Source: Capillidium heterosporum (Eukaryota; Entomophthoromycota; Entomophthoromycetes; Entomophthorales; Capillidiaceae). From it: a stretch of DNA of 64,000 nt. Shown piece by piece: positions 3,215-43,641 of the stretch. The notes under the pieces are model-generated. The model did no database searches. It saw only the letters and a program-made list of their open reading frames with translations, and was not told the origin of the DNA. The position numbers were made by a program, and so were the translations under genes. Numbering within the stretch: position 1 is the stretch's first letter; every line of letters begins with the position of its first letter. The stretch lies in the NCBI GenBank assembly GCA_016630905.1, contig WBMQ01000010.1, positions 1,302,001-1,366,000 on the forward strand, in the 5' to 3' direction.

Positions 3215-4728
3215 TTAGAAATCCTGGTTCTTACAAGCCTCCAAAACGACGTTGCAGTAGGTCTTCAGCCTTTTGAGTTCGATTTGGAACTTGTCATCGA
3301 GCACCTTCTCCTCATTTTGAAGTGCATTGACTTCCACTTCAATGTCTTCCTCCTTACTTTGAACTTTACCTTTCAGCTCGGTGATGACCATATCGTCCTT
3401 CTTCCTCTCATTCTTTAAAGTTTCCAATTCGGTACGGGCGACTGTTAGCTTGTCAAAGTAGATTTTTCGCTTACGTTGCTTCTGTTGGTCAAATTTGGCT
3501 AACTTTTGTTGTTGGAGGTCTACCTTACGTGCTAGTTCCTAAAATGAGTGAGCGAATGATTGAAAAGTTGATGTACCTCGTTGCTGGCAAGATGCTTTTG
3601 GGCGTTGTTTTCGAGTCCAGCCAACAGATCCAAGCTTTTGGGTAGCATGTCCTTAAAACTTTCAATATTCTTCAACGTGGTTAGTAGAGCCTTCGTCGAG
3701 GTTAGTGTTGAGGTGAGGCTGCGCAATGCCAGATTTCGCGTTTGAATTTTGACTTTAAGCTCGTGGTCTTCCAGCTCGGTCTCCTTCAACTGCTTAGCCA
3801 GTTCTGAATTGCGAACTTTCAACCTATCTAGATCTCTCAGTAGGATTTTAGGGTCTTCAACCACTTTGGACTGCAAGTTTTTGTGTTCATTTTGGGCTTC
3901 CTGCAGCTCGACTTGTATAGCTTCGATTTGCTCTTTAAGTAGCTTATGCTGCTTACGAATCTCCTCCGATTCCATCTTTTTAGCCTCTTTAGAGGCGTTT
4001 ACTTCGATTAACTTCTCCTTTAAATCGGCAACCGATTGTGTTAATCGATCTACCTCAGGTTGCTCCTGCTGTCGCTGATACCTATATATGTTTAAATAAA
4101 TATATTGATTTAAAAAAGTTACTCTAAGTTTTCATATTTCTCTCTAATTTCATCTTCTTGATGCCTAACTTTATTTAGTTCATCTTCCAAATTTTCCTAT
4201 ATGAACGAGTAAAAAAATTGCTATAAAACTAAATGCTTACTATTTGCTTCATAGGTGCTTCAATATCCGGCAACGAATCATCTCTAAACAACAAAAAGTT
4301 TATAATAGCAGAAGCATGATGTCGAAACCGTGTTGGCTCTGGCTTTAACAGGTCACGGAGCGTCAAGTCAGGTATACCAATCTTTTTAAATATAGTAGAT
4401 CTAAAGAACAAATGCATGTAAATAAAAGGTTAAAAAAGAAAATATTGACTTACATATGCATACAGAAACTCAAAAGTCCAACGGCACTAGTATATAGTTC
4501 GGGATATTCAATAGTTTGAATAGTTTCCAGGTCATTTAGCTGCAAATTTTCGACTTGGGCTCTATTGTACCCGGTAAAGATAACAGAACAAATTTCGTAA
4601 AAGTATTGAACATATTGGCTAGTAGGTTCAGTTATATCTTTGTTTTTGGTTTGAATGTCGTAGGTGTTTAAGGTTTTCACTATCTCATTTACGGGTAACA
4701 ATGGGGGTTCGAGTTCTTTGTCGGCCAT
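3215..4728 (-). CDS. NUF2: Kinetochore protein Nuf2
   Basis: About 445 aa in five exons with introns of roughly 38-53 nt. The N-terminus from MADKELEPPLLPVNEIV, then TYDIQTKNKDI and a segment around YVQYFYEICSVIFTG, matches the Nuf2 calponin-homology domain ('fPiL...eIv..L......ee.l..Pt...V...ye...'). The second exon (DLTLRDLLKPEPTRFRHHAS) matches the conserved 'l...DL.kPe..R.r..lSa.iNF..F' segment. The rest is long heptad-rich coiled coil, as expected for the arm pairing with Ndc80. Nuf2 is part of the NDC80 complex that binds microtubules. The start at 4728 was chosen because it puts the LPV motif near the N-terminus; an in-frame ATG at 4791 is possible. Confidence 0.88.
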
Positions 4729-5590
4729 ATCTTTTGATATTAAAATGGTTTTTCCAAAGTGCTTTGGAATTTGTCTGCATTTTCTTATCAATATTGAGTT
4801 TAGGAAAATAGAAAATCAACCAATTAAGCCAAATGATATTTAGGAAAGATAGGCTCCTGTAATAATCCTTGACTTTGTGAGTACATCACAATACTTTTAA
4901 TAATATAAACTAAAGAATGCCAATAAATGGCAGCTGTATTTCTACAAAACTGAAGATAGTTGCTTAATATATAGGTAAGGATTTCGAAAACATACTTGCT
5001 CTTAAATCTCAGCAGTAGTAGATATAGATATGTACTTTAGTAAAAACTTTAATTATTATATCCAGGTAGAATAATAATAAGAATCAATAAAAAGCTTTGG
5101 ACAGTCCAAAGACACTATTTACAAAAAACTATGCCTTGAATAAATCTATATATATTGAGTTTTTGTATTATATGTCCAATTGAAGCTGAAATATTGAAGA
5201 GTCTACATAAGCCAACATGACATCTGACAAAAGAATTTACTCACCGATCCCACTAATTTCCTCCTAGCTTGAGTGAGAGATTTTATTTTGGGGTATCGAG
5301 GCCAGAAGGTCCCATCGTAGCTCTAAGAAAAGAGCATTGTTCTTTGTAGATTCCTTCAACTTAATCAATTTTTTGATCCTATCTTTCTACAGAAAATTTT
5401 TGGAAGATATACAAGCAATTTGATGATAATAATAAAGAATTATGAACATACACTTATAGGTCAGTTGTCTAAGTTAGCCAATTCAAATATTTATTAATAT
5501 CCATATATTGAATTTTGTGTTGACTGCCAGTAAATACAAATAGAGCGATAAGTATATATAATAGACTTATTTGTTACTTTAAACCAAAAT
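4729..5590. other. Intergenic up to inverted-repeat junction
   Basis: AT-rich spacer between NUF2 and the abrupt left edge of the inverted repeat at 5591. No exon or RNA gene recognised. Confidence 0.5.
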
Positions 5591-6497
5591 CTTGGCCAGT
5601 TCGACCGTAAAGGTAGCAGCCCGCGACGTCATCTCCAGCTGGAAACTCCTCATCGCCTTGGGGCTGGTTCCCACCCTCTACCTCTTCTACACCTTTGTCA
5701 CCTACGTCATCTGCACTTACTACCTGTCCATGTCCTGGTCGGCTGGGCTATGGACCTCCATCCTAGTTCTAATTGCTTTGCCAACCGTTTCCATGATCAG
5801 CCTGGTGTTTGGTGAACGTGGGCTGGACATCTTCAGGTAATATTTCATTTCCTCCAACATGCTAAGCCGCAATAGATCCTTGAGACCGCTGTTCTTGAAC
5901 ATGTGTGGCCACTCCGATGTCAAGGACTTGCAGGCCAAGCGCGAGCACCTGCGCCTCGAAATCACCTCCCTAGTCAACGACTTTGGTCCCCAGCTGTTCC
6001 CTGATCTAGACAGACTGAGGCTAGTCGACAACGAGCTGGAGCCTCCTATGACTTCGGGTATCTTGACTCCAACCACCATGTCCAACCTGAACTGGTTCCT
6101 ATCTCCCTTTGAGGCAGTCGGCGAACGCCTATTCAGCGACTCCGAAGATAACAACGAGACTTCTGGCACCGATACCCCCAACCCTCAGCACGAAGAGTTC
6201 TCTAGCGAGCGCATCACCCTGCTTGGCAAGAACCATATGCCCCGCGTCCATTCCCCACTCGTACCAAGAGGTGATACCTTTGAAAGCAGGAGCTCGGCTG
6301 CCATCAGTAGGAACCGTCCCCAGCCCATCAACTTGAATAAGGCTGGGAAGGAGGAGAACGCTGGCATGACCGAGAGTAAGATTGTGGAGAAGGAGCTGTT
6401 GGAGGCTATCAACACCGAGATCCAAGTTAGTGAGTTGGTCGGTGAGATTGGAGTTAAGGGCGAGAAAGTTGACGAGGAGGATAAGAAGCTGAAGTAG
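5591..6497 (+). pseudogene. 5'-truncated copy of SCT1/GPT2
   Basis: Carries only the C-terminal part of the glycerol-phosphate acyltransferase found complete at 18110-20530. The copy starts abruptly at codon ALASSTV with unrelated DNA upstream. It lacks exons 1-5, including the HANQFLD and FPEGG catalytic motifs, so it cannot be an active acyltransferase. The remaining frame is intact: a membrane segment, the 39-nt intron at about 5837-5875 (GTAATA...CAATAG) and the tail ending in EEDKKLK. The first in-frame ATG is at 5730. I found no base differing from the intact gene, which points to recent duplication. Confidence 0.9.
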
Positions 6498-6616
6498 CTC
6501 GATTTGAAGATGAGTTAAAGGAGCGTGGGTGTCTTTTTATTTGAAGTTTAATTAAATTTGGTTTATTTTATCGATGCTTTTGTACATATATACAAGGCTA
6601 ATTTTTAGTGTCCATT

Positions 6617-7104
6617 TCAGCCTAGTTTATTTAGGAAGGCTATCGCTTCTACGTACAGCTGCTGGCTGCAGCCTTGGACCCAGAACAAAACTCGGGCATC
6701 CAAACTGAAGTCCAGTGTCCTTTTTTCGTCTTGTCCTCCATTTCTTTCCCCATCGTCATCCTAACAATCCTATTAATACTTTAGAATGGAAATTCACAAA
6801 TACGTTCGGCAGAACAATGCTTGCCAAAACCAAGTACAAGTTGCCGGCTTTGATATCGACCATGTTGACCAGATTGTTCAAATAAACCTGTACTCTGTAG
6901 CCATCTACTTCGAATATCCCTGTCAACCTACCGCCTTTGTCATTAAGCTCCACCAACCTAAATTTATAGTCTAGGTAAGCATCTAACGATATGGAAAATA
7001 GCTTACTTCATAAGTATACGGATGTTGGCTGAGTTGGTTTTTAGTTCTATCTCGTTGATAAGTCTGTCTATCAATGTATACTTGTAAGGTGAGCTCGTAT
7101 ACAT
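6617..7104 (-). CDS. TEN1: TEN1-like CST telomere-complex subunit, copy A
   Basis: Small gene of about 131 aa in three exons (introns of 49 and 43 nt) running from ATG at 7104 to TGA at 6617. The predicted protein is one OB-fold-like domain: MYTSSPYKYTLIDRLIN, then ANIRILMKLVELND, GRLTGIFEVDGYRVQVYL, AGNLYLVLAS, an acidic loop, DARVLFWVQG and YVEAIAFL. The stretch 'AGNLYLVLAS...DARVLFWVQG...YVEAI' lines up closely with 'VGSLYIVLGE...KARVLTCVEG...LEQAI' of animal TEN1 as I recall it. Ten1 partners Stn1 in capping telomeric DNA. Copy A differs from copy B by one silent change and one Glu-to-Gly change in the acidic loop. It converges with the truncated SCT1 copy (120 bp between stops) and diverges from the F-box gene. 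Confidence 0.6.
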
Positions 7105-7388
7105 CTTTGAAGCTGGGGTGGCAGGCTATTTCGCTGACTCTTGAGGTAACGAGTTCACTTTCAACTTTTCAGATTTGTTAGATTCCTTGATGACTTACGT
7201 CATTGGCTTTGTAAAACTGGTGGGTAGAGTAAATCTAAATAGTTTGCACTTTAACAATATACGTTGGAGTAGGCATAGTAGCAACTGATTATAAACCAGT
7301 TTCCTTGTATACAGCTTTTGGTCAATTCAACTCAAAGCCACAAATTTTTCCAGCTTCTTTGAACTTATTCAAATAAACGAGCTCCAAG
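7105..7388. promoter_or_regulatory. Divergent promoter of TEN1-A and F-box gene A
   Basis: 284 bp between the two start codons must drive both genes. The same segment, with two base changes, is at 17219-17502 in the right arm. No specific operator was identified. Confidence 0.55.
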
Positions 7389-8672
7389 ATGAGCATCAAT
7401 TTCAACGAGCTCCCTGATCTATTAGCTGAGGAGATCATCAGCTATCTCGACAAAAAAGATTGGTCCAGGTTGCGACGCTGCAACAAATACATCAACGGTA
7501 TCCTGTTGCCTAAGATTTATGAAAAGGTAAATGTCTACGAGCTGAAGAATGAAAGCTGGCAACAGTTTGAATTGCTAGTTTCCAAGTACGGTAAATGCAT
7601 CAAAGATATCCAATGGTGTCATCACCCAAAGCTATTCGATATAATGGATTCTTTACCCAGCTTGATATGTCTAAGTATCCACCAAAGGCAGATTACTCGG
7701 ATGCTCAACCTTCTACATACGTTTCCAGTAAAGTTGAAGGCTCTTAGCTTGACATTCCCTTCATCATGCTTAACCGAACCAAACTTCCACCACGTTATCG
7801 AAGACCTTGTACATCTTAATTTAACGCTACATGGCAGTATAGTAGAAAATTTGCGGTCCTTACAGCTATTCAGTAATGCTCGGCTTCGATCCTTAAAGTT
7901 AGCTTTGCGATATAGCGATCCTCAACTTTTAGTTAGTATCAACATCAATTTTCCCAATTTGCGAATACTCGATCTAAGTCTAGCCAACTACCAATCGGAT
8001 CTAAATATCGTTGCAACTACCTTTAGGAAATTGAGGAAGCTGTGCTTGAACTTCTACTTGATTAATTGCTTGGATCGAATCCTTATGAGTTGCTTCCCGG
8101 AGCTTCAAATTTTACACTATGGGCACTTTTTTAGAAGCAGCTGTAAAGGGTATGGCCACTTCGTCGCAAATACCTTTGACAAGCTGGTTGGTTTAGATTT
8201 CAATGTAAAGTCGATTGCTTTTGAAGACCTGCCCAAATTTCAAAATTTAAAGTACGTTAGCCTCACTTTAGACGATTCCTTCAACAACCGATCCATGAAG
8301 AACTTGCTTTCTCTATCCAAGCTGATACACCTGTGTCTTCGTGGTGATATCAACGATGGCCTATTTAAAGAAGTGTCGTGTATCAGCCCAATTACTCATT
8401 TAACCCTACTGCCCGAAGTTAGATTAGGTAGTAATTTTATCCAGCTTTTACGATTTCAACTATCTTCTCTCGTCAATTTGGCCATCGTCCCTATCAAAGA
8501 TACCCCTGTTTGTGAAGTAGTCACCAGTAAGATCAACAGCGAAAGTACCTTGAACTTGAACTTCCTTACCATCCCCAAATCCGAAATCAAATTTGCTGAA
8601 TGGATTATCAAAATATCTCCCAATGTTTCCATAAACCACGTTTTGAGATCCTCAGCTTATTGCAGAGCTTGA
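7389..8672 (+). CDS. F-box / leucine-rich-repeat-like protein A
   Basis: Intronless gene of 427 aa. Residues about 3-45 form an F-box (FNELPDLLAEEIISYLDKKD, then WSRLRRCNKYINGILLPKIYEKV), the Skp1-binding module of SCF ubiquitin ligases. The remainder has irregular leucine-rich stretches (LRSLKLAL, FPNLRILDLSL, LRKLCLNF, FQNLKYVSLTL) suggesting an LRR substrate-binding part. Its first 358 bp are almost identical to the broken inverted copy at 16861-17218, while the rest is clearly diverged from the paralogues. That indicates this gene is itself a recombination chimera. Likely role: substrate adaptor for ubiquitination; target unknown. Confidence 0.8.
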   Translation: MSINFNELPDLLAEEIISYLDKKDWSRLRRCNKYINGILLPKIYEKVNVYELKNESWQQFELLVSKYGKCIKDIQWCHHPKLFDIMDSLPSLICLSIHQRQITRMLNLLHTFPVKLKALSLTFPSSCLTEPNFHHVIEDLVHLNLTLHGSIVENLRSLQLFSNARLRSLKLALRYSDPQLLVSININFPNLRILDLSLANYQSDLNIVATTFRKLRKLCLNFYLINCLDRILMSCFPELQILHYGHFFRSSCKGYGHFVANTFDKLVGLDFNVKSIAFEDLPKFQNLKYVSLTLDDSFNNRSMKNLLSLSKLIHLCLRGDINDGLFKEVSCISPITHLTLLPEVRLGSNFIQLLRFQLSSLVNLAIVPIKDTPVCEVVTSKINSESTLNLNFLTIPKSEIKFAEWIIKISPNVSINHVLRSSAYCRA

Positions 8673-9308
8673 AGATATCTTAAACCGGTAAATAGTGCAG
8701 ATGGAAACCCCTTTGAATCACCTTGTATATCTATTCGATAACACCTATATATTCTAAACTTATAATATACCTAATTCTTTATAAATAAAATTATTTCTTT
8801 GCTATATTTTAATTATATATTGCTTTTTTGATAACGATACTAAAGTTTTAAGCCAATTGTAGGAGCTTTTGCTGTACTTTTAAGCATGTATTTAATCGCC
8901 ATAAAGCTACCAGCTACTTATATGTGCGTGAATGAAAACCTTATACTTGACTATTCGTAGGTTTACTTTTATATGTAGATATGATAAATATTACTGGAAT
9001 AAGGTATATTGGATGGAAGATATGGGATTACCTATTTATATAGCAAAAAATCGGAATCGATCCAAAGTTTTTGAACTTAAATATAGTCTTGGGACTGCAG
9101 TTATTTGAAGAGTAAATTTTTATAGAAGGTAACTATACATTTCTGAGGTATAATCTACAAATTCGATTTTTACAAAAGATAGATTGCCATTTGTAGGATA
9201 GATTACAATAGGCATTATACTATAGATGGCAACTCAAACCAAAAGTTGAGAAAGCTAGAAAGCTAAACTTTCGCTACCTTTAATCCTTTCAAGTAAATGA
9301 ATTTTGAG
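8673..9308. other. Spacer between tandem F-box copies
   Basis: AT-rich. The first 100 bp resemble the sequence downstream of the F-box pseudogene (GATATCTTA...CAGATGGAAACC against GGTATCTTA...CAGATGGAAGCC), so the tandem duplication included 3' flank. Confidence 0.5.
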
Positions 9309-10560
9309 ATGAGCATCAATTTCAGCAATCTACCTGATTTGTTGTGGGGATTACAGGCTATTTAGATACATTCTATTGCTTCAACCTACGGTACTATAAC
9401 AAAAGGCTTAGCACCATACTGTTAACTTAATTTCATGAAAAGATATTCCCTAACGGTCTAGCTGATGAAGATGGCAAGAATTTGAATCTTTAGTTATGAA
9501 ATGTGGCAAGCATATTAAGGAAATTGAGTAATGTAATCATCTGGAGCTTTATAAAATAAAGAATTATCTTACCAACCTGAAATGCCTACAGCTAGTTCAT
9601 CATGCTAATACATGTATGTTCGACCATCTATATACACTGCAAGTAAAGTTAAGAGCTCTTTGTTTAAAGACATATGTGCAGTTTCAAGTTGAAGTGAGCT
9701 TCAACCACGCTATTGAAGATTTGACCCACCTTAATTTGACGTTAAACGATAGCCTGACGGAAAATATGAAAACATTTCAGCTGTTTAGCATTGCTCAGTT
9801 TCGATACTTAAAGTTAATTTTGCTTAAGAACGATCATCAGCTACTAGCTCATATTAACACCAACTTTTCCAGCTTGAAGATGTTTGATCTAAGCTTGATA
9901 AGCTACCAATCCAATTTTAATATAGCTCCATATATTTTTCGAAGTCTGAAGAGGCTGACATTATCTTTTAACTTTACAGGTAACTTGAAAAAAGTTTCCA
10001 TGAGCTGCTTCCCAGATCTTAAGATCTTAAGCAGCTATATAATTGGAAATGCAGTAGAATGCTACGATCACTTTGTTGCCAATATCTTTGACAGGTTGAT
10101 TAATTTAAGTTTAGCGATACTACCAATATCCGCCCAAGTTCCCCACAAGCTCCAAGGTTTAAAATAAATCGACTTGTCCTTATTCGATAACTTTGACAGT
10201 CGATCGATAAAGTACTTGCTTTCCCTGCTCAAGCTGGTTTGCTTGTACCTTCAAAGTAGCCTTATAGATGGTTATTTCAAGTATGCATGATGTACCAGCT
10301 CGGTTACTCGGCTAGAATTTTTAGGCCATGTTGATTTAAGTGTTAATTTATCAAGGTTCTTTATCTTTAACTGCCTTGCCTCGCCAACCTAATTTTCGAA
10401 TCTTCGCTGCAGCAAACTTTGATGAAGTTGGTTACAAAGATAGCTTGAGCTTCCTTACGATTCCTTGTTTCTAAGAAGAGGTTATAAGGTGGGTCAAGGT
10501 TCTATCTCCGAAAACCCTTATTTAAGTAAACTATGTAATTTATTGAAAAGCTTAAAGGTA
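9309..10560 (+). pseudogene. Decayed tandem F-box gene copy
   Basis: Begins ATGAGCATCAATTTCAG, as in the intact gene (MSINFSNLPDLL), but the frame is soon lost and stop codons follow. An open piece at 9616-10167 reads SFNHAIEDLTHLNLTLNDSL, INTNFSSLKMFDLSL and LKRLTLSFNFTG, matching the middle of F-box gene A. The end carries SLSFLTIP-like remnants and a homologous 3' flank. Several frameshifts and in-frame stops rule out a full-length product. Confidence 0.85.
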
Positions 10561-11179
10561 TCTTAGCCTTCAATGGGTAATACAGATGGAAGCCTCTTTA
10601 AACCACTTCTTAAATATAATATGTCTTATATATTTGTTGATAAAGTTATTATTTATATATATATATCATTTTGTAATAAGTGTTAAAAAACTCATTTTTG
10701 GAAACATTACTACCACCTTTTAAACTAATTATTTTACCGAATGTTCAATCGTTTATATACATGATGGTAAACGGTCTACAGATAGAGTACAATTCATACA
10801 TGTGTTTTTAAGAATAGCTTTAGGCAATATTAGCCAAATACGACATGCCTTTCAAAAGATAATACACTGTTAATTTATATAGTAAAAAATGATAGCTGAT
10901 TTGAGAATCTGCGTGTCATTTCTATTTATAGAGTTCAAATGTGCTTATAAGAATACAGTTGTTTGAAGGGAGTATACATCTATATGAAAACTCCTTAAAT
11001 TATTAGCCAATATAGCCAGCATACTTTTCCAGTTGCAAATAATTTAATCAAAATCTATGCGACAAATTGTGCTGGATCTCTTACAATCCCCATAACAGTC
11101 TGAAGCTTTCGTCAAAACTAAGTTCTTTGTAAAAGCAAGCCAACGTCAACCTTATTCTCCAACTATTGCAGAAAAAATA
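10561..11179. other. Intergenic, upstream of RAV2
   Basis: Contains a short TA-rich run near 10650. No exon or RNA gene recognised apart from the expected RAV2 promoter. Confidence 0.45.
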
Positions 11180-12132
11180 ATGACACAAGTAAACCAACTT
11201 TTCCAAAGGAAATAGGAAGCTAATCTTATCAACTGTATTAGAATTTAGAACTACTACAGTTCCAAACCCAATTTCTCCCCGACTTATTTCACCAACTTGG
11301 ACAACATTTAACTTCAATAGTAGAATCGAATAAAACTCCCACCCCACAAGTTCTTAGGCTATCCTCATCAAGGTAATGTATTTTATTGCTACTATTTCTT
11401 TTTCCATTTTTCTCATGTCTTTATTTAAATAGTAACAAGAACATCACCGGAAGTTTAACTTTAGTAAAGGATACGATAGTTTCCATGGTAACTTTATTTT
11501 TTCGTATTTACTTTGAAGAGCACTAAATTTGTATACTTTTAATTGGATAGGATCTGGTAGGTCAGATGGACAAGTTCAACTTCAAGCAGCTGTTTCAAAT
11601 CCAGTTAAATCCAAATTTAAAACAGCAGCTATCCCAGGTATCGTTGGTTTTTACCGAGTTGAATGGGCTGGTGGAACTGCTGGATAGTTACCAGTACTTC
11701 TGCTTGGACGATACCATCCAAGTAAACCCTTTATTTTATATAGAGTATTAATGGCTTTCCTTCAGTTTATAAAAACTTTGGAAACCAAGATGGAAAACTT
11801 GTCCAAACTGCTGAAATATCCCAACCAATATTTATTGTTTCCCCATCAGCTGTTGGATCGACAGGTATCTGCATTTATATCATTATGTGTTGACTTTTTA
11901 TTAAATAATACTGTAGGTTATAATGCCAACCTTACCCAACGACTTTACCATCCAGTACTATATCCAGAACTTCAAGTTGATGGTGCACCTACTCCACTTC
12001 AAAGAAACACAAATAATTGACAATTTGATTCTAGCTGTGGACGTCGAAAATCTAACAGCTTTAGCAACCACATTCAAACTGTGCATTGAAAAACTAAAAC
12101 ATAGTCTATTGCAGCTCGATACTTTGAAATAA
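11180..12132 (+). CDS. RAV2: RAVE complex subunit Rav2 / Rogdi homologue
   Basis: About 225 aa in six exons joined by introns of roughly 44-63 nt. The predicted order is MTQ / NLELLQFQTQFLPDLFHQL...PQVLRLSSS / NKNITGSLTLVKDTIVSM / DLVGQMDKFNFKQLF...DDTIQ / FIKTLETKMENL...LLDRQ / VIMPTLPNDFTIQYYIQNF to the end. The segment 'FPHQLLDRQVIMPTLPNDFTIQYYIQNFKL' (split across two exons) corresponds to the conserved 'F.P.LPsdl.vnvyI...kL' region of Rogdi/Rav2, and 'NITGSLTL' to the 'vkG.ltl' strand. The family helps assemble V-ATPase (RAVE). It is tail-to-tail with RTP1, with 19 bp between stop codons. Confidence 0.7.
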
Positions 12133-12151
12133 AGAAAACTATATATTTTTA

Positions 12152-15100
12152 TTACATCTTGAAATTCTTTGGCACGTCCTTGATGATGTCGATTTTAAAC
12201 TTGTTGACCCAATCCAAATTCTTGCTATTTTCGGTCAAGTTCTTCAACTCCAGTTGGATTTTGGAATCGATCTTGGCGATACACCCATACACCAATTCCT
12301 TCAACAACACATCGTTCTCAGTCCCGTAGATAGAATCCAATAGACCTAGCAGTTTCTCAAATAAGTATAGCTTGAGGTCATTGTCAAGTTTATCAAAATG
12401 CTGTTCGATAATTTGGTTGAGCAACTTTAAACTTAGAATCTTGACCTCAAAGTAGACGGTCGGTAACTTTAACAAGTTTAAGACTAGATCAACGATAAAT
12501 TGAAGTTTTGGGATAACAAAGTAAGGGGTGGTGTTGAACAGAGTGATGATTAGACTTAGGGTAGAGGTCTGGACCAGCTGTCTGGGATCTAAAGGTTGAA
12601 CTGGTGTAGCGGGATCGGGTAGTAGGTAATCGTCGGTCAACTCCAAACTTTCCAACTTGTCGGTCAATACCTCTCCATTGCCTTTACCTTCGTCGACCTT
12701 CAGTAAATCGCTATCGCTCACATTTAAATTGAGTAGAATAGACTCCCAGACTTTATTGAGAAGTTCTAAATTGAGATTCAGTTGGTAAAAGTTTAGGCAG
12801 CAGTGTAGAATCTCAGCACAATGTAACCGAATCGCAAAACTGCTGCTTCGGAAAGTATCCAAAACCTTTTGAAAGATTTTCCAGCCGAACTTGGGATTAA
12901 CTAAGGTGGTTATAGCATTGACCAACTTGCCGATAAAATAACTGTCCTCATAGTCCAACCAGTCCATTAAGTAGTCGAAGGTATCCTCCAGCTCAAGTGA
13001 CTTTTCGGCAGTCCATTCAATTCCATCATAATGGAGCTTGATCTGGTCCAAACCAAAAGCTTTGACTGAAACCAACTCGTCGTTCAAGCTTAACTTGGCT
13101 AGTTCTAGTCGGTCATGCTCAGCTTTATTTCTACTTTGAGCCTTATTCTTGTCGAGCTCCTTATCTTCGGTTGGGCTGTCCAGAGTGTTGAGACCAATGG
13201 TGGCTTTCAATAACAAAGAAACCGACTGGGCTTCCCTACGGATGGAGATGTCCAGTTTAGGTTCCTTGTTCAGGTGATTTAGGATGGGTAGTAAATTGTT
13301 TAGTTGATCTACTAGCTTCCCAGTCACCGACTCTAGCTTGCGGTTCAAACTTATACTCAACAATTGGAGAGCTAAACTCAACCCTTCAAAGTTTGGATCT
13401 TCGTTCCCATCTTCGCTATCATTGTTGCTATTGTTGATATTGAAGTTGGAGAGATAGTCGTTGTAGAATCCTAGAATCAGCTTGGAGGTTAACTTTACTA
13501 TAACATCCAGTTTATCGCTGAGTTTCGGGGATACCTTAGGTAACAGCAGGGCTAACAGTTGCGCAAGTATCAACTTTTGCATATCAGCGTCGCTTTGAGG
13601 GGCGGTGGCTAGATAAATATTGGTGTCAAAGTACAGCTCCAAAAGTTTTAGAAATATTGTCAGGTCGAAATCCTTGTCGTATTTGACTACTAAACTTAAA
13701 ATATGTTGGAACTGTTCGATCACCTGGCTAGACTCTAAAACTTCTTTATCGAACATCAAGCTGTCTAGATTTCTAGTACTAGGCTGTCGAAATTTAAGGT
13801 CGACACTCCCATCCAAATTGCGATGAAGGCTTAACTTAATCTGATCAGTACTTCTACTATCGGACTCAACTGTAACCAGAGATAGTATCAACTCCACCCG
13901 AAAGTTGGTATCTAGACAGCCCAAATAGCTACTAATGATCGCTTCTACTATCTTGAACTTGCTATCGACGCCATTTTCCAAGCTTAGCTCCAGCAATTTG
14001 ACCAAAGGCAGAAAGTAAGGCTGGATCAAAAAGTTCAAACGGTCTTGGTCGGGATCCGACTCTACCACCAGGTTGAAGAGCTGGTGCAAATGTTTCAGTA
14101 AAGTGTTTGAATCCATCTCCATGTTTTTAGATCCCTTCGAAGCCAGTAGGTGACGAAAAGGTAGCATGACGGCATCCACTATTGTACTCTTGGCAAATTT
14201 ATCGTAACGTACTAATAATTGATTTAAGGTGAAAATTGCCATCCTACATGTAGGATTGTTGTCATTGGTATCCTTCTTAACATCGACCTTACTTATGACT
14301 GATAGCAGTTGGCTGACAATCAAATTTAAGTGTTCATTTTGTGGAAGGCCCAAATTGATATCTTTTGGTGCAGTTAATAGCAACTTTGATACGGTTAGAA
14401 GCCTTGGTGTATCTAAAACTTTATCTAAAATTTGTCAATAAACCAGTATTTTAAAAAAATAGTTACCATCGTACAACTGGTCGGCAAAGTAGGTTAGGAA
14501 GATCAGCACTCCATCTTTGTTGATCAAAATGTCATTTAGTATCTCGTTCAGAGGCCTCTTAAATTTTACTATCAAGCTGGGGTCGGTGCTGAAACCACTT
14601 AAAGTCTTATGGATGGTAAATATACTTTCGATAAGTTGGAATACGTCTATTCTAATATATATATAAATATATCCATTCCATTTTATGTGAATTATTTACC
14701 TTAGCTGCAGCTTTTTCAACAGACTTTGAAATTTATTCCTATCCACTTCGTTTAATCCATACTTGTATTTGACATTTCCATAGTCGAAATTGGAGCTGAT
14801 ATCTCCTAAAGCTAACTGTAGGGTAGCAGTAAAGATAAATGTAAAGTAACTAGACTGTAAGTTTGACTTCAACCAACTGAAGCTGCAGCTCTGCTTCGAA
14901 TTCAAAAGTCCCGTCAAGTTTATTAGGTGGTAGGTGAGGTAGTTGAGTTTAGCTGCGTCATATTCCTTCCTATTCAACAAACCGCTGTCCAAATCTTTGG
15001 TGTCAATATCTTGTTGGAAGCCGTCATTATCATCCTCCAATTTTTTATATATGAGTGGTACTACTAAGTGAGGTTGGATGCCGAAACTGAAGATGAGTTC

Positions 15101-15439
15101 CAAGTTCCGTTGAAAGATTCGTTTCTCTTGAACTGTTAAATCGGGATCGATACCTCTATCTCTACAACCTATAATAAACCAATATAGCAACACATCAGTT
15201 ATCAAAGGTTTAAAATAAAACTTTACTTCTAGAATAGTCAGTAAATATATTTGTGGCTTCCACCGCTTTCTTAAATCTATAGTTGAATATCTCATGCTTC
15301 TTTACTTTTTATCATTTAACATGTTGAAAATTAAGCAGAACAAGTTACTTGGTTTATTGGTGAGTATCGTATCTAAACCTTCCAAGGTAAACAGCTTGAC
15401 TATCTTGTCGAGGGTTTCGGTCTTAAAGTCTTCCGTCAT
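12152..15439 (-). CDS. RTP1: Rtp1 / TANGO6-type HEAT-repeat protein (RNA polymerase II nuclear import)
   Basis: About 1,030 aa in five exons (introns of 42-58 nt), starting MTEDFKTETLDKIVKLF at 15439. The whole protein is a helical, HEAT/ARM-like solenoid. Near the middle, KRPLNEILNDILINKDGVLIF resembles the first conserved Rtp1/TANGO6 block. Towards the C-terminus 'LSLNDELVSVKAFGLDQIKL' followed by LMDWLDYEDSYFIGKLVNAI resembles the 'l.D..vpvrahGL..L......L..LkDeDSyVyL.aI' block. Yeast Rtp1 helps import RNA polymerase II subunits. The match is by motif arrangement, so a different HEAT-repeat family remains possible. Confidence 0.65.
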
Positions 15440-16007
15440 TTCTTTCTATCTCTTATAAAGCGATGGCCTGGTATAGAAAGGTGAAAAAGCTGGGCGTTTC
15501 GATATTTGAATAGAAAGATTTATATGATTGGGTTAAAAATTGAGACTGAGCTTTAAATAATAGTAAATGGAAATGTGATTGAAAAACTATCATATATCCC
15601 AATTTTATCCCGCCATATTTGGCTTATTAGATGCTAGTAGTTAAACATCAGTTGATTAATAGTCTACATGGCTTCTAAAATATTCAAAAGGAAATAGACA
15701 TAGGATATAAGGTTTGCAAAAAGCATAGCTACTATCGTAAACTTTGCAGAGATATCAAATTGTTAGCAACTGACAAACCACCTAGTAGATATATCGCAGC
15801 TATTTTCATGTATTTATTGCCACTACTTTAAATTAAATATACAGCCATAAAAGACTAATATTGGCGCATTATAGTAAATACAAAGAAAACTTGTAACCAA
15901 CTACAATAATTGAGCTTTATTTAGATGACTTAAAAGAGCATGGGATGGGATTTTGTATTTATTGTAATGGTAAAGTTCAATATACTTCTGATTACTCTAA
16001 TTAACAA
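15440..16007. other. Intergenic, upstream of RTP1
   Basis: AT-rich DNA between RTP1 and the 3' end of the inverted F-box pseudogene. No gene recognised. Confidence 0.5.
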
Positions 16008-17218
16008 AGATACTTGAAGTGAAGTTTATAAAGACATCTGGAGACAGAACCTTCACCCATTTAATAAACTCAATTTTAGTTTTGGGAATGGTGAGGAAGT
16101 CAAGTTCAAGCTGCCTTGATAGCCGACTTTATCAAAGACTGTTTCATCGATTTTGATATGCCTACCCAGTAGTTCAACAGTTAAATTGACAAGAGAAGGT
16201 AGCTGATATTAAAGAATATTGGTAGAATTGTAACTTAAACTAATATTGTAAAATAGCTTTAGCCAGAAAATCGGACTCATGCACGAAACACCTTCGAATA
16301 GATTTTCTTTAATGTCACCTTGAAGGTACAGGCAAGGAAAGTAAATGTTTCATATATTTGTTCTCAAAGGAATATTCTAGATCCAAGCTGGTGTACTTTA
16401 GATAGTAGAGCTTTTGTAAATCTGACACAAAGCGATCTTACAGTTGTAGCTAGGCGCACTAGATTATCGAACAGGTTTACAACAAAGCTTCTATAGCATT
16501 CCGCCTCGTCTTCGAACATGTCGCTGTAGATCAAAGCTCGGAGTTCTGGGAAGCAAGTCATGGGGATCTTGTCTAAGTAATTTAACAGGCGAAATTGCAG
16601 CTATATCTGAATTCGAAAAATGGTAGAGGTTTAGCTCAAGCACTTTTAAGCTGGGAAAGTTGATGTTACTATTAGCTAGGAGTTGGTGGCTGCTATGATA
16701 AAGAAGTGGCCTTAAGGATCCAAGCTGGAGGACATGGAACAACTGCAATATCCTCGAAATTTTCAATTCGTCACCTTTCAGCGTTAGGTTGAGATAAACC
16801 AGATCCTCAATAACATGATTGAAGCTTACAACAGTTCAAAAACTCGCATGTGTGTCAGCTTAAGAGCCTTCAACTTTACTGGAAACGTATGTAGAAGGTT
16901 GAGCATTCGAGTAATCTGCCTTTGGTGGATACTTAGACATATCAAGCTGGGTAAAGAATCCATTATATCGAATAGCTTTGGGTGATGACACCATTGGATA
17001 TCTTTGATGCATTTACCGTACTTGGAAACTAGCAATTCAAACTGTTGCCAGCTTTCATTCTTCAGCTCGTAGACATTTACCTTTTCATAAATCTTAGGCA
17101 ACAGGATACCGTTGATGTATTTGTTGCAGCGTCGCAACCTGGACCAATCTTTTTTGTCGAGATAGCTGATGATCTCCTCAGCTAATAGATCAGGGAGCTC
17201 GTTGAAATTGATGCTCAT
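16008..17218 (-). pseudogene. Chimeric F-box pseudogene C
   Basis: The first 358 bp (17218 down to 16861) equal F-box gene A except for one silent base. At 16860 identity stops abruptly and the sequence becomes a distant paralogue: VIEDLVYLNLTLKGD, NSNINFPSLKVLELNLYH, and near the end LTIPKTKIEFIKWVKVLSPDV, each matching the corresponding part of gene A at low identity. Right after the junction the frame meets TAA (HMRVFELL-stop), and more frameshifts follow. A truncated 130-aa F-box-only peptide could still be made. Confidence 0.85.
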
Positions 17219-17502
17219 CTTGGAGCTCGTTTATTTGAATAAGTTCAAAGAAGCTGGAAAAATTTGTGGCTTTGAGTTGAATTGACCAAAAGCTGTATAT
17301 AAGGAAACTGGTTTATAATCAGTCGCTACTATGCCTACTCCAACGTATATTGTTAAAGTGCAAACTATTTAGATTTACTCTACCCACCAGTTTTACAAAG
17401 CCAATGACGTAAGTCATCAAGGAATCTAACAAATCTGAAAAGTTGAAAGTGAACTCGTTACCTCAAGAGTCAGCGAAATAGCCTGCCACCCCAGCTTCAA
17501 AG
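17219..17502. promoter_or_regulatory. Divergent promoter of TEN1-B and F-box pseudogene C
   Basis: Right-arm counterpart of 7105-7388 with two substitutions. If the promoter is bidirectional it still drives TEN1-B and transcription into a broken F-box frame. Confidence 0.5.
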
Positions 17503-17990
17503 ATGTATACGAGCTCACCTTACAAGTATACATTGATAGACAGACTTATCAACGAGATAGAACTAAAAACCAACTCAGCCAACATCCGTATACTTATGAA
17601 GTAAGCTATTTTCCATATCGTTAGATGCTTACCTAGACTATAAATTTAGGTTGGTGGAGCTTAATGACAAAGGCGGTAGGCTGACAGGGATATTCGAAGT
17701 AGATGGCTACAGAGTACAGGTTTATTTGAACAATCTGGTCAACATGGTCGATATCAAAGCCGGCAACTTGTACTTGGTTTTGGCAAGCATTGTTCTGCCG
17801 AACGTATTTGTGAATTTCCATTCTAAAGTATTAATAGGATTGTTAGGATGACGATGGTGAAAGAAATGGAGAACAAGACGAAAAAAGGACACTGGACTTC
17901 AGTTTGGATGCCCGAGTTTTGTTCTGGGTCCAAGGCTGCAGCCAGCAGCTGTACGTAGAAGCGATAGCCTTCCTAAATAAACTAGGCTGA
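17503..17990 (+). CDS. TEN1: TEN1-like CST telomere-complex subunit, copy B
   Basis: Same three-exon structure as copy A, with introns at 17601-17649 (GTAAGC...TTTAG, 49 nt) and 17804-17846 (GTATTT...TTAG, 43 nt). Splicing these two introns joins three reading frames into one protein ending AIAFLNKLG. Strand order and motifs fit the single OB fold of Ten1. This copy sits beside the intact SCT1 gene (119 bp between convergent stops) and is probably the ancestral locus. Its acidic loop reads DDDGERNGEQDE, against GERNGGQDE in copy A. Confidence 0.6.
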
Positions 17991-18109
17991 AATGGACACT
18001 AAAAATTAGCCTTGTATATATGTACAAAAGCATCGATAAAATAAACCAAATTTAATTAAACTTCAAATAAAAAGACACCCACGCTCCTTTAACTCATCTT
18101 CAAATCGAG

Positions 18110-20530
18110 CTACTTCAGCTTCTTATCCTCCTCGTCAACTTTCTCGCCCTTAACTCCAATCTCACCGACCAACTCACTAACTTGGATCTCGGTGTTGATA
18201 GCCTCCAACAGCTCCTTCTCCACAATCTTACTCTCGGTCATGCCAGCGTTCTCCTCCTTCCCAGCCTTATTCAAGTTGATGGGCTGGGGACGGTTCCTAC
18301 TGATGGCAGCCGAGCTCCTGCTTTCAAAGGTATCACCTCTTGGTACGAGTGGGGAATGGACGCGGGGCATATGGTTCTTGCCAAGCAGGGTGATGCGCTC
18401 GCTAGAGAACTCTTCGTGCTGAGGGTTGGGGGTATCGGTGCCAGAAGTCTCGTTGTTATCTTCGGAGTCGCTGAATAGGCGTTCGCCGACTGCCTCAAAG
18501 GGAGATAGGAACCAGTTCAGGTTGGACATGGTGGTTGGAGTCAAGATACCCGAAGTCATAGGAGGCTCCAGCTCGTTGTCGACTAGCCTCAGTCTGTCTA
18601 GATCAGGGAACAGCTGGGGACCAAAGTCGTTGACTAGGGAGGTGATTTCGAGGCGCAGGTGCTCGCGCTTGGCCTGCAAGTCCTTGACATCGGAGTGGCC
18701 ACACATGTTCAAGAACAGCGGTCTCAAGGATCTATTGCGGCTTAGCATGTTGGAGGAAATGAAATATTACCTGAAGATGTCCAGCCCACGTTCACCAAAC
18801 ACCAGGCTGATCATGGAAACGGTTGGCAAAGCAATTAGAACTAGGATGGAGGTCCATAGCCCAGCCGACCAGGACATGGACAGGTAGTAAGTGCAGATGA
18901 CGTAGGTGACAAAGGTGTAGAAGAGGTAGAGGGTGGGAACCAGCCCCAAGGCGATGAGGAGTTTCCAGCTGGAGATGACGTCGCGGGCTGCTACCTTTAC
19001 GGTCGAACTGGCCAAGGCCTCTGTTCAAATTAAATTAACATCCAAAATTTGAATAAATCAACTTACCCTTCTGCTTACGCTTACTGACAGTCGAAGCCAA
19101 ATAGAATACAGGGGCGTTGAGTATAATTCTACATCACAGTGTAAGTAAATTGGATTACAAAATAAGGCTTACCCAGGCAGAGTGATGATCGAGAAGATAA
19201 GGACGGTGATCAACCTTCGGAAGAATCGCACGGTAGCTCGAGCCCTATTGATAGTAGTACTCTTCACTTGATGGTCCCTAAGCCCGTAGGTTTCCAAATC
19301 AGCGTTGTAATCCAAGATCTGCTTTTTGAGCTCAATAACCCTAGGTTCATCCTTGAAGTGCATGTACCCTTCAACGAGACGACGATTCAACTCGACGACT
19401 TGGGAGATTTTAAGTTTGTGATTGGGGTTACGGTACAACCTACGGCCCGCCTGCACAATCTTCAAAGTCTCATAGTCGGGAGTGTTGATGGTGACGTCTT
19501 TCAAAGCGGCTAGGATAGTAGCTAAAAGCTGGGAGCAGGCAGCACGTTTCTCTAGACCCCCTTTCTTGAACTTGGCAACGAGATCAGCTGGGACCGTGAT
19601 GGGGTGCCCGTAGTCGACGACAGCACGGGATCTAAACTTGTCGGGGTGGAAGTAGTTTAATCCTGAAATAAAGTTAGTTTTGGTTTTTGTGAAAAATTAC
19701 CGCAGGGGATGATCTTAAGGTCCAAGTCGGGGTTACTGGCCATGGCACCTAAAGCCATAATGGCAATCCCAGCTAAAAATTAAAACCCATTTAGCTTATA
19801 TGATAGATACTAAAATAAATACCTTTGAGAGGAAGTAATTCGGTACGGTCGTGAGAACCTCCTTCTGGGAAGATACCTACACACTCGCCGGCATCCAAAG
19901 TTTCGTGGACCGACTTGTACATAATTGACTGGTCGATGTGGGGCACGAACTTGAACCCGACGCCGGCTTGCAAAGCTTCTAAAGCGTCGGGGTCGGTGAT
20001 CTCCTTTTTAATTAGAAGTTCAGTGTCGTTGACTATCTCTACAACTTCGACACTAACTTTACTAGCATGCTCCAACGTCAACACGCATTGAACTTCCAAC
20101 TCCTTGATAAATTTGGTGTCGATACCGCTAAGTAAAAGGGGGTTGTTGTACTTTGTCACCAACTTCAACTTACCACTACCTTTCTTGGAGTAATCCTGGG
20201 GTCTAGCTACTGGAACTATATATAAAGGAATGAATAAAATGAAGCTTTTAGAAAATTACTTGAACCGACTAACTTGGATAAATGACCTATCATCGGACGG
20301 TCGTAGGATTTCTTTGCAATTAGGTAGCTTATACGTCTGCCGGTATGTCGCTGTAGAACGATGGGATCCAAAAACTGATTGGCATGGGGAGCACCTACGA
20401 AGAACAACGCGCCATCTTTGGGGATACGGTGAGAGCCTCTAGCTTCGATATCCCTGAAGAAGATTTCTATTACTTGGGTTAGGAAGAAGTTGGTGAGGTC
20501 GGTAGGTAGATGTTGCCAGTCGAACGCCAT
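18110..20530 (-). CDS. SCT1: Glycerol-3-phosphate / DHAP acyltransferase (Sct1/Gpt2)
   Basis: About 720 aa in seven exons (introns 38-50 nt, for example 20216-20259). It starts MAFDWQHLPTDL at 20530. The acyltransferase core is clear: GAPHANQFLDP (the Gpt2-type HX5D block), then IPVARPQD, GIFPEGGSHDRTELLPLK (FPEGG block) and IIPCGLNYF. A C-terminal part with membrane helices (ITVLIFSIITLP, ISSWKLLIALGLVPTLYLF) and a charged, Ser-rich tail follows. The enzyme makes lysophosphatidic acid or acyl-DHAP at the ER, the first step of glycerolipid synthesis. The last two exons are duplicated in the left repeat arm. SCT1 and GPT2 paralogues cannot be separated from sequence alone. Confidence 0.93.
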
Positions 20531-28246: not shown

Positions 28247-28746
28247 TCGAGTATAATTAATAGCATCCATAACCTACATCCTTTGTGAACTTGAATTTTA
28301 TTAAACTATATATCCTATCAAACTTCTGAATAGTATTACATTTATATTTAGGAACTTACGATTAGGAGAAACTAACTTGGGTATTATAGGCGACTATTGA
28401 CAGTGTATAAATTGGAGTTGTATATATATGTAATCATAGAAATCTATCAACATTATAATAACATGGCTAATCAATAGCTTACCTAGATTTGCTTAGCTGA
28501 AAATTTTGCATTATATAAGGATTTTCATCATACAATAAACCATTACAGTTATATAATATACAATACATTAAAATTAAACTATATGTATGGTAAAAGTTAC
28601 AAGTAAGGACATATCAAGCTTTCCTTATAAAGAAAACTAAATAGCTTAGAGTTAAGTCTAAATAAAATACAAAAAGTGAGTTTCAAACAGAAATATACCA
28701 ACTCTCATTAAGACTCAACAATTCAAAACGATAAAAAGCAAAAAGA
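28247..28746. other. Intergenic, MFS to tRNA-Val
   Basis: AT-rich. Holds the Pol III terminator of the leftward tRNA-Val (T-run on the minus strand). Nothing else seen. Confidence 0.4.
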
Positions 28747-28820
28747 TGTTTCCATCCAGATTCGAACTGGAGACCGTCTGTGTGTTAGACAGACGTGATA
28801 ACCAACTACACCATGGAAAC
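28747..28820 (-). tRNA. tRNA-Val(AAC), copy 1
   Basis: 74 nt without intron. Acceptor GTTTCCA pairs with TGGAAAC; D arm GTGTAGTTGGTTATCAC; anticodon loop CTAACAC gives AAC; T arm CTCCAGTTCGAATCTGGAT. Identical to the copies at 29492 and 41346, and in opposite orientation to the next one. Confidence 0.95.
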
Positions 28821-29491
28821 GATCAAGAGTACAGTAGTACTTGATATTTTGGTTTCTATAATGCATAGATAATCGTAGTGGATTCTTAACATCAACCATC
28901 AAAGCTTCTTATTGATTTAACCAGCCTATACTATTGTTTATATAGTGAATATATTGAAATTGATATATAATTAAATGATTTACATATATAAGTACAATGC
29001 TATATTGTGGTTCAATGCATTTAGCTTGGACTGGTAGTATAAATACTTGAAAGCCTATATTCCTATCCTTAAATGGACTGAAATTTAATTTAACCTTGGT
29101 GTTTGCTTTTAAAAGGTAGAGTTGGTATAAGTTGGTTCACCGTTTGCTAATTAGGTGTAATTAGATATACCCTGGTTAAAGAATGTCGATTCTAATTGTG
29201 AATAATTTTATATTTGACTAAGTGTACAATTTTAGCAGGTATATAGGAAATCCAACTATATCATCTTTAGCTACAAGTACAAAAGTTAATCTATATTATA
29301 AATATAAAAACAAGTTTCTAATAGAAAATTGTAACAAGCTGTTACTTTTACTGTCTTTAGATAGTACATATAGTTATAAAGAAATAGCTTCACTATTATA
29401 TAGTAACTCAATATTCGACATTGGTGGGATTATTAATAATATATAGCTATATTAATTGGGGTCGTATAAGAGTATTGTAGTACTCTTGATC
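28821..29491. other. Spacer between inverted tRNA-Val genes
   Basis: 671 bp separating the 5' ends of two identical tRNA-Val genes. A short sequence beside each 5' end (TACTCTTGATC) is shared, so the duplication carried a little flank. The open frame at 29222-29446 is AT-rich and not convincing. Confidence 0.5.
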
Positions 29492-29565
29492 GTTTCCATG
29501 GTGTAGTTGGTTATCACGTCTGTCTAACACACAGACGGTCTCCAGTTCGAATCTGGATGGAAACA
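29492..29565 (+). tRNA. tRNA-Val(AAC), copy 2
   Basis: Identical in sequence to copy 1 in opposite orientation; same anticodon AAC. Followed by ATCTTTTTAT as terminator. Confidence 0.95.
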
Positions 29566-30075
29566 TCTTTTTATATTTTGAGTCTTTATCGTTTGGACTC
29601 GTTGGATCTAATTGTAATACTTTTGACCATTATTGTATTTAATTTTTAAAACTGCCATTTCATTGAAGTAAAGAATAACTTTGGATGGATTTGTGGTTTT
29701 TTGATATACTGTATGTAATAGCTTATTGTACTGTTGAATCGTAGATCCTAGATCTTCATCTCAAGAGATATGATGTTTTCGTTATATATTTACTTTACTA
29801 TGGTAGGATGGAGTTTTGATCTACCCGACCATAGAGATTTTATTTCAGAAAGAGAATTTAAATAGCAAACATAGAATTTTTATAAGCTAAGCTTTCCATC
29901 TACAACAGAGATTCCTTTGGCCTACAGCCTAGGCTTTATGGACAAATAACTCATTATCTCAGCTTTTTTAGTCCAGCATCAAATTCTCCAACTTTGACTT
30001 ATCAACTTTTGATTCAGCTGACAGCACTCCAAAAGCAAAAGTTCAATTCCAAAGGACCAAACTTTTTCTACAACG
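29566..30075. other. Intergenic, upstream of RRP46
   Basis: AT-rich; no gene recognised. Confidence 0.45.
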
Positions 30076-41345: not shown

Positions 41346-41419
41346 GTTTCCATGGTGTAGTTGGTTATCACGTCTGTCTAACACACAGACGGTCTCCAGT
41401 TCGAATCTGGATGGAAACA
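41346..41419 (+). tRNA. tRNA-Val(AAC), copy 3
   Basis: Identical over all 74 nt to the copies at 28747 and 29492. It also shares the downstream ATCTTTTTGC of copy 1. Confidence 0.95.
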
Positions 41420-42313
41420 TCTTTTTGCTTCTCTTTATTGTCTGTCTTCAAACTGCTGAACTAATAGTTTATATTTCTTTGGATGTAGTATTATTTTCTC
41501 AAGAGTCAATCTGAAAAATGGTACTTTTAGATAGACAAACAATTTTTATAAATGTAAATTCCCTACTCATGGATGCTTGAGATAGTAATGTCTTCATTTC
41601 TGATAGTCCTTTGGCTTTTAAAAAACTATACTTGTATATAAACGCCTAAAGGTTGATACTATTAATCATCACATAGTTGAGAATCTATGATTGACCTTAA
41701 TTCAAAATGTAATTTTAAAGTGCAGATAAAAGAATATACTTGCAGCTTATTTGAATATAGATTGATGGATAGTAAATAGACGATATAGAATATACTTTTA
41801 CGGGATAGTAATCTTCAGCAAATTTGACATATTTATAGGTAGTGATCCTTCAACTATATTTGGTTATGAAATGGTTAGCAATCAAGTTGGCCTACCTCAG
41901 CTTTATTGAATCTAATATAGCTTGTAATTAACTAAAAAGAGTTTTATTCCAAAGTTCGAAGCTTTCAGCTTGCCATCTATATTCATACAGGTCATCATTT
42001 GCTGCAACCTATTCAATCCCAAATACTTGGAACTTTCAGTTTCAGTACATCGCTTCAAAACTGTATAACATTATCTAGTATCAACATAAATGGTGTTATC
42101 AAGTGCCTAAGTGTCCTTATAACAGACTATTCTGTATATATATAACAAAAGCTCATGTAAAATGTATATCTTTATTAAATAATGTTTATTTGATATTGAC
42201 CGTAAAGGTAAATATATATACATATACGTAACATGTATTCTAATCTAGGTGGTGGGTATTGGTATTAATTAAACAGTTCGAAGTTACAAGTTGTAGGTGC
42301 CAAACTTAAGGCC
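41420..42313. other. Intergenic
   Basis: AT-rich; no gene recognised. The right end is the 3' flank of the repeat-protein gene. Confidence 0.4.
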
Positions 42314-42836: not shown

Positions 42837-43454
42837 TGTTGTAGATCTAGTAGGGTAAAAAAACTATCAAAGTGATTTCTTTGTAAAGTTGTTTGGATAG
42901 TGTATATTTGCTTTCCTTCGACGACTATTTATAGTGAAAATCACAGAATCTATTTAGTTTGATGGACGGCAACCGAAACTATACTTTTGTCCAAATCATT
43001 TCAAATAGTCTTCTGAAGAAAACTATCAAACTTGTTCAAATTTCAACGATCAATTTGTAAGGTAGTAAAGATTGAGATTCGAATATCTTACACTTTTAGT
43101 CTACCGATTTTAAATTTATTGACAGACAAACGATGGATACGCTTATTGGAATTTGATAGATATATCTACATCTAAGATATATGAGTTGTTGTGAACATTC
43201 AAAGATAACGGACAAAGTATACATATAAATGCCATCTGTCTCACTTGAGCAGATTAATATCTCTAAATAGAGATGAAAAGTCAGATTATAAGTGACAAAT
43301 GCTATATGTTCAGTATAATACACCATAGAAAAGCCCATCCTCATCTAATCGTACCATCAAACTTTAGGTAGCAGTATATACCGCAATCATAAACATATAG
43401 CCAAAGATTTGTGTTTGGTTGATATTTTATTTATATAAAAAATAGAGTTATACT
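42837..43454. other. Intergenic
   Basis: Promoter side of the repeat-protein gene and the region downstream of U2 snRNA. No exon recognised. Confidence 0.4.
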
Positions 43455-43641
43455 CGTGGACGTCACCTGCCGGTAAGTGCAATAGCAGGGACATCCATGA
43501 GATGGAGGTAGGCAAGCCAAGAGCTCCAACTCCAGTTCCAAAGATTGAGTTAATAACAAAGAGGCCGAAGCCTCGTTCCAGTTATTAAACTGAAAAGAAC
43601 AGATACTACACTTGATCTTAGCCAATAGGCTTGAGAGGATT
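43455..43641 (-). ncRNA. U2 snRNA: U2 spliceosomal snRNA
   Basis: The 5' part reads CTATTGGCTAAGATCAAG then TGTAGTATCTGTTCTTTTCA, the most conserved stretch of U2. It includes GUAGUA, which pairs with the intron branch site, and UUUCAGUUUAAUAACUG. Stem IIa is formed by GAGGCTTCGGCCTC, and an Sm-like site AATCTTTGGA follows. The 3' hairpin CCTGC-TATTGCACTTACC-GGCAGG matches stem-loop IV with the U2A'/U2B''-binding loop. Length about 187 nt, like fission yeast U2. The exact 3' end is an estimate. Confidence 0.95.

Follow-up and report, generated by a model that had tools for sequence, protein, structure and literature searches.

Does a near-identical inverted repeat mark a recent duplication, or an old one whose copies were later made alike again? 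This question is raised by a locus of Capillidium heterosporum in which two inverted arms, each carrying parts of an SCT1-like gene and an F-box gene together with a TEN1-like gene, enclose a middle segment. We analyzed a window of 64,000 nt (contig WBMQ01000010.1, positions 1,302,001-1,366,000, assembly GCA_016630905.1) and searched the complete assembly of 29.5 Mb in 44 contigs. As judged from the sequence, the arms belong to an old inverted block reaching from the SCT1-like gene to the F-box gene. The two copies span approximately 5.2-8.7 kb and 20.5-16.0 kb of the window and show about 58-68 % DNA identity outside the core. Probably, the 2156-bp core of this ancient block, i.e. the arms, was homogenised by ectopic recombination (gene conversion). 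An earlier sequence-only reading of the window had taken the arms for a recent duplication; according to our analysis the block was duplicated long ago and its recent part is the core only.

The near-identical inverted arms

Direct comparison of 5591-7746 and 16861-19016 confirmed that the two segments are reverse complements of 2156 bp each without any insertion or deletion, as the sequence-only reading had described them. Six mismatches were found (99.72 % identity), one more than the five (about 99.8 %) counted before. They are located at the left/right positions 6735/17872, 6749/17858, 6926/17681, 7283/17324, 7307/17300 and 7700/16907, and five of the six are transitions. Three fall into the TEN1-like coding sequence, where one alters an amino acid, one is silent within the F-box gene, and those at 7283 and 7307 are situated upstream of the TEN1 start used here. 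All differences were confined to 6735-7700, leaving 1144 bp on the SCT1 side free of any. This clustering was not significant (largest-gap test, P 0.074).

A repeat finder listed four inverted pairs of at least 60 nt in the window, and the arms greatly exceed the other three, which measure 109, 85 and 71 nt. As the repeat finder tolerates mismatches, it extended the arms to 5574-7754 and 16853-19033. Searching the assembly with the DNA of 5400-8800 resulted in two places, which were both arms of the window.

Each arm contained one complete, spliced TEN1-like gene in addition to the 3' end of the SCT1-like gene and the initial 358 bp of an F-box gene. This corresponds to the gene content given by the sequence-only reading, though the TEN1 family match is weak. 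The introns of the TEN1-like and SCT1-like genes, placed by hand splicing, were kept in both arms; hence DNA and not mRNA was copied, and an origin of the arms as retrocopies was rejected.

The arm ends and the homology beyond them

At its outer end the left arm stops at 5591 within the SCT1 sequence, where a non-homologous join had been proposed. Our analysis revealed a decayed inverted SCT1 copy in the left flank (5209-5582) instead. A search of the assembly with the SCT1 protein retrieved the live gene, the arm fragment, a gene on contig C42 and, additionally, a remnant of residues 6-90 at 5231-5485. This remnant had an expectation value (E) of 1.7e-4 genome-wide and of 5.9e-9 by tblastn within 901 bp, and it carried three stops (one TGA, one TAG and one TAA). 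At the DNA level, 5209-5538 was identical to exon 1 to exon 2 of the right SCT1 gene at 220 of 321 positions (68.5 %) with a score of 222.5, as compared to a shuffled null of 56.6 ± 7.4 (maximum 84.5). Against the SCT1 gene of contig C42 the same segment scored 92, below the null maximum of 112.5. It is the shuffle-based scores that carry the homology argument; chance alignments of AT-rich DNA here also reach identities of 0.62-0.66.

The second piece, 5501-5582, aligned to 19113-19030 with a score of 60 (null 27.4 ± 4.5, maximum 39). Position 5582 pairs with 19030, which is 5 nt off the arm register, and an offset scan of the outer side yielded a best offset of +7 nt (identity 0.415, mean 0.258, standard deviation 0.031). 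Both remnant alignments claimed the stretch 5501-5538, and we therefore placed the seam there; the left copy lacks the roughly 1.09 kb of SCT1 that would separate the two remnants.

The left side thus carried an inverted SCT1 copy of its own, which died long ago. The sequence-only reading had named an intact SCT1 gene on the left, in a related strain, as speaking against its interpretation; in decayed form such a gene is present here. The SCT1 3' fragment in the left arm probably lacks function. The block is adjoined on the left by a gene at 3532-4731 (-), the start of which resembles the kinetochore protein NUF2; the scanned 147-aa open reading frame (ORF) had no such Pfam match. Homology past the block, between the side of this gene and the region past SCT1, was not significant (score 186.5, null maximum 221.5).

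At the inner end, beyond 7746 and 16861, the F-box genes continue on both sides with 58.6 % identity over 870 aligned positions. The alignment of the left and right 3' parts scored 437 (null maximum 130.5), with a best offset of 1 nt from register. The sequence-only reading had already placed this end within F-box homology, and the F-box paralogs were indeed seen to continue in register. Downstream of the two F-box genes homology was not significant (score 121.5, null maximum 145).

Taken together, a sharp-edged core of 99.7 % identity lies within diverged homologous sequence, and both tract edges are in or near register (inner 1 nt, outer 7 nt, 5582/19030 5 nt). A near-identical core inside diverged duplicates is ordinarily explained by ectopic gene conversion. 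The features of the locus are compiled in Table 1.

Table 1. Coordinates of the features in the window
Feature	Position	Strand	Remarks
Left arm	5591-7746	+	2156-bp tract, probably homogenised; SCT1 3' end, TEN1-like gene, F-box 5' end
Right arm	16861-19016	-	inverted counterpart, reverse complement of left arm
Middle segment	7747-16860	.	9114 bp; possibly inverted relative to its flanks, as suggested by opposed donor directions at the tract ends
Decayed SCT1 5' end	5209-5538	+	left flank; exon 1, intron 1, start of exon 2; DNA alignment and protein search
Remnant of late SCT1 exon and intron 5	5501-5582	+	aligned to 19113-19030, nearly in arm register
SCT1-like glycerol-3-phosphate acyltransferase, complete	18110-20530	-	719 aa after removal of six short introns
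TEN1-like gene, left copy	6617-7104	-	three exons, 131 aa, hand-spliced
TEN1-like gene, right copy	17503-17990	+	hand-spliced; one residue (93) differs from left copy
Left F-box gene	7389-8672	+	intact ORF, 427 aa; first 358 bp common with right copy
Right F-box pseudogene	15990-17218	-	first 119 codons intact (within arm), 3' part beyond diverged
Middle F-box pseudogene	9309-10560	+	tandem relative of left F-box gene, 3' flanks alike
Other ORFs of middle segment	12152-14242 and 14696-15295	-	from ORF list

Donor direction at the two tract ends

Almost certainly, the right side served as donor at the SCT1 end: the left SCT1 5' part is wrecked (three stops, 1.09 kb lost), but the 3' exon of the same copy matches the live gene exactly. 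Copying from right to left, as the sequence-only reading had proposed for the whole tract, holds for this end. It fits the F-box end badly, as the intact left gene would have inherited the 5' end of a dead gene. Here the donor looks like the intact left gene, because the right F-box gene is dead while the shared 5' end is undamaged; this argument is statistical and not a proof.

In the right F-box 3' part the reading frame changed five times from one tblastn piece to the next and at least one stop was in frame, and the rows of a family search over this stretch contained four stops. In contrast to it, no lesions were present in the 119 shared codons. Similarities were compared with those of 27 F-box paralogs, consisting of the fetched best family matches minus the three of the window itself; 25 of them are free of stops, the other two have one stop each, and in two of the 27 the N-terminus is incomplete. 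The shared codons were average in their similarity to these paralogs (z -0.01), whereas the right 3' part was second lowest of 28 (z -2.03; -1.79 by a masked measure). Both parts of the middle F-box pseudogene gave low values (z -2.04 and -2.69). Counting conserved columns pointed in the same direction as the z-scores.

Starting from the 27 paralogs, we simulated decay under neutrality, with the condition that the 3' part resembled the right one. The joint probability that an undamaged 5' part belongs to a gene as dead as the right 3' part was 0.0037-0.0055 in a first simulation. A second one with a lower range of indel rates gave 0.0038 with 6-12 lesions in the 3' part; its six settings ranged from 0.0038 to 0.046 overall. 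When the similarity cut was lowered by 0.5 or 1 standard deviation, values of 0.0085 and 0.0148 were obtained, respectively. For the right 3' part the simulations imply a neutral time of approximately 0.08 substitutions per site. This is far longer than the divergence of the arms (6 differences in 2156), and the right F-box gene was therefore dead before the homogenisation event. The differences in guanine-cytosine content, overall and at third codon positions, between the shared 5' part and the 3' parts were small, and composition was not used as donor evidence.

Several points weigh against a left donor at this end and against the inversion discussed below. The conserved-column count separates the genes less well than the z-scores do (right 3' part 66 of 90, left 76 of 96, paralogs 73-89 of 94-96). 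Dropping the condition on lesion count raised the joint probability to 0.022-0.046. The 27 paralogs had been picked as best matches to the left gene, which biases its z-score upward; the lowered similarity cut allows for this bias. Distance profiles for the shared 5' part ranked the right 3' part first (correlation 0.21) and the left gene's own 3' part 21st of 30 (-0.05), in a test of low power which placed the true partner first for 7 of 28 focal genes. With regard to a single donor for the whole tract, the SCT1 end indicates right to left and the F-box end rather the left gene, with the low-power profiles leaning the opposite way. Finally, the crossover step is deduced from the donor directions within a single assembly.

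A possible course of events and its alternatives

The opposed donor directions at the two ends can be reconciled by a crossover, for which reason we consider an inversion of the middle segment. A block spanning the SCT1 5' region through the F-box 3' end was duplicated in inverted orientation long ago, and its copies diverged. The recipient would by then have carried a dead SCT1 and a dead F-box gene, and the donor an intact SCT1-TEN1-F-box block. Repair of a break by gene conversion probably homogenised the 2156-bp core, ending in homologous and nearly in-register sequence. A crossover during this repair, or a later exchange between the identical arms, would have inverted the 9.1-kb middle, so that the intact F-box 3' end came to lie on the left and its dead counterpart on the right. 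By-products of these events would be a pair of complete TEN1-like genes and an SCT1 3' fragment. An intact donor block, a doubly dead recipient and a crossover inverting the middle together have about an even chance of being correct. That arms of this kind can invert the segment between them or convert each other, as the sequence-only reading had pointed out, is supported as a possibility. That SCT1 was lost on one side and the F-box gene on the other does not by itself argue for a flip, because duplicate genes can be lost independently.

Two other explanations share the ancient block and the conversion of its core. Both ends would be accounted for without a crossover by two opposite conversions: one would have copied the SCT1 3' end and TEN1 from right to left, the other the F-box 5' end from left to right, with an overlap of the two tracts in or near TEN1. 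The SCT1 side of the arms looks as if it had been homogenised later, though its lack of differences did not reach significance, and two separate events would have to meet without a visible seam; we regard this course as rather unlikely. A single right-to-left tract requires the fewest events and fits the SCT1 end, but it would turn the left F-box gene into a chimera and demands that the right 5' end escaped decay by chance or because of a useful F-box-only product of 130 aa. In its favour, the 130-aa ORF on the right is open, the family has a short member free of stops elsewhere (C32:2236911-2237315, residues 1-134), and the distance profiles lean towards this explanation. Against it stand the low joint probabilities of both simulations for an undamaged 5' part on so decayed a gene, and the middle pseudogene, which is low in both parts and not only in one. 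On balance a single tract of this direction appears doubtful.

A recent duplication with a non-homologous join at 5591, or an inversion by staggered breaks as described in Drosophila, would produce the same geometry of near-identical inverted arms around a segment. Both ends, however, run into diverged, homologous and nearly in-register sequence, and the arms were not single-copy before, which makes such an origin very improbable. Even less credit is given to an assembly artefact, i.e. a repeated or folded read placed twice: six substitutions without indels, different flanks and homology in or near register past both ends are, in our judgement, not expected of an assembler.

Comparison with known systems

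An ancient inverted block with a core homogenised by conversion appears to be a plain example of a process already known and not of a new one. With ectopic (interlocus) gene conversion the locus has in common a sharply bounded, near-identical tract in older diverged duplicates with ends in or near register. The seemingly opposite donors at the two ends are different; one conversion event alone, if no crossover took place, does not produce them. Inversion by crossover between inverted repeats is resembled by the near-identical inverted arms and by the genes of the loop, which look out of phase with the arm flanks; the difference is that the inversion here is deduced from one orientation.

In Drosophila mojavensis, staggered-break inversions 2h and 2q leave single-copy DNA duplicated and inverted at both breakpoints, with the joins ascribed to non-homologous end joining (PMC3355041). 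Inverted duplicates, about 1-7 kb long, surround a segment there as our arms do. In contrast, the DNA in that case was single-copy before and end-joined, whereas the tract ends here lie in older duplicates. A staggered-break inversion, with single-copy arms and non-homologous joins, was rejected in view of the SCT1 remnant and the F-box homology past the arms. Among the titles listed for the literature on F-box expansion and on the recombination mechanism, none concerned this locus.

A near-identical inverted repeat may accordingly pass for a fresh duplication, while an adjoining decayed remnant reveals an old block that was recently homogenised. If the inversion is true, the split of gene halves into intact and dead lets a past flip be read from one assembly. 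The locus also represents a natural duplication of a candidate telomere-capping gene (TEN1), and it hints at a role of a large F-box family in rearrangement.

The genes of the locus and the F-box family

The SCT1-like and TEN1-like genes were spliced by hand, without RNA data. The 410-aa N-terminal part of the SCT1-like protein matched PF01553 (E 2e-11). A second SCT1-like gene is located at C42:1332209-1334391, with 36-64 % identity over the matching pieces, and an F-box copy (C42:1339191-1340255) lies approximately 4.8 kb from it. A TEN1 search of the assembly found no place on this contig.

The name TEN1 for the 131-aa gene is a lead, backed by its length and domain coverage. The predicted protein matched PF15490 (Ten1_2) over profile positions 25-108 of 117 with E 0.027 and 14.6 bits, below the cut-off of 27. 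Its single match in PDB was an adhesin (E 0.19). Among 40 candidates from a protein database none reached E ≤ 1; shared short words were required in this search, so absence is unproven.

The left F-box protein matched PF00646 with E 0.00026 and 21.2 bits (cut-off 20.5). The 3' flanks of the middle and left F-box genes aligned with a score of 196 (null 116.3 ± 12.2, maximum 150). In the left flank, 4700-5600, a search for an F-box remnant gave chance-level matches only (E 0.32 and 0.84). The F-box family comprised at least 101 matching rows on many contigs, with 98 of 229 candidates scored and rows not being equal to genes; many rows were broken and frequently clustered. None of 6287 candidates from the protein database matched the F-box protein at E ≤ 0.001, a search which likewise required shared short words and leaves absence unproven. 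In the middle segment, the ORF 12152-14242 had a weak match to RTP1_C1 (PF10363, E 0.0029, 18.1 bits, cut-off 25.9).

A second inverted F-box pair

The 27 F-box loci and the first 24 kb of the window were compared pairwise with a threshold of 85 % identity over 150 bp. Two pairs reached it, the arms of the window and an inverted pair on contig 4 (C4:782243-783720 and 792265-793743; L035/L030/L031) with 98.4 % identity over 1480 bp and a distance of about 8.5 kb. On the inner side of the latter, homology continued in register (168.5, null maximum 128.5); on the outer side no continued homology was found (74.5, null mean 84.6). One of its F-box copies has an in-frame TAG.

Two inverted pairs, both about 9 kb apart, do not make a rule. 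It is conceivable, though quite improbable, that dispersed F-box inverted repeats keep rearranging the chromosomes, in that neighbours about 9 kb apart convert each other, flip the DNA between them, move intact and dead halves and copy passengers such as TEN1.

An older inverted F-box pair was observed on contig C2 at approximately 1069330-1070650 and 1077620-1078930 (L021/L022), with 74 % identity over 1.3 kb and a distance of about 7 kb. Furthermore, L007 (2890-3725) and L019 (1023-140), as well as L032, on contigs C4 and C32 have about 0.9 kb in common at 74 %, beside but outside the F-box matches.

Other observations in the window

Three tRNA-Val (AAC) genes were found at 28733-28841, 29471-29579 and 41346-41430. 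Two of their pairings are 100 % identical over 81 and 85 nt, respectively, and an inverted pair among them measures 109 nt with 94 % identity at a distance of 629 nt. A gene for the U2 spliceosomal RNA is located at 43451-43642 (-) (Rfam RF00004, 142.4 bits). A placement in Entomophthoromycotina is indicated by the best named matches of a 738-aa channel-like ORF, which were from Neoconidiobolus thromboides, Massospora cicadina and Entomophthora muscae (52 %).

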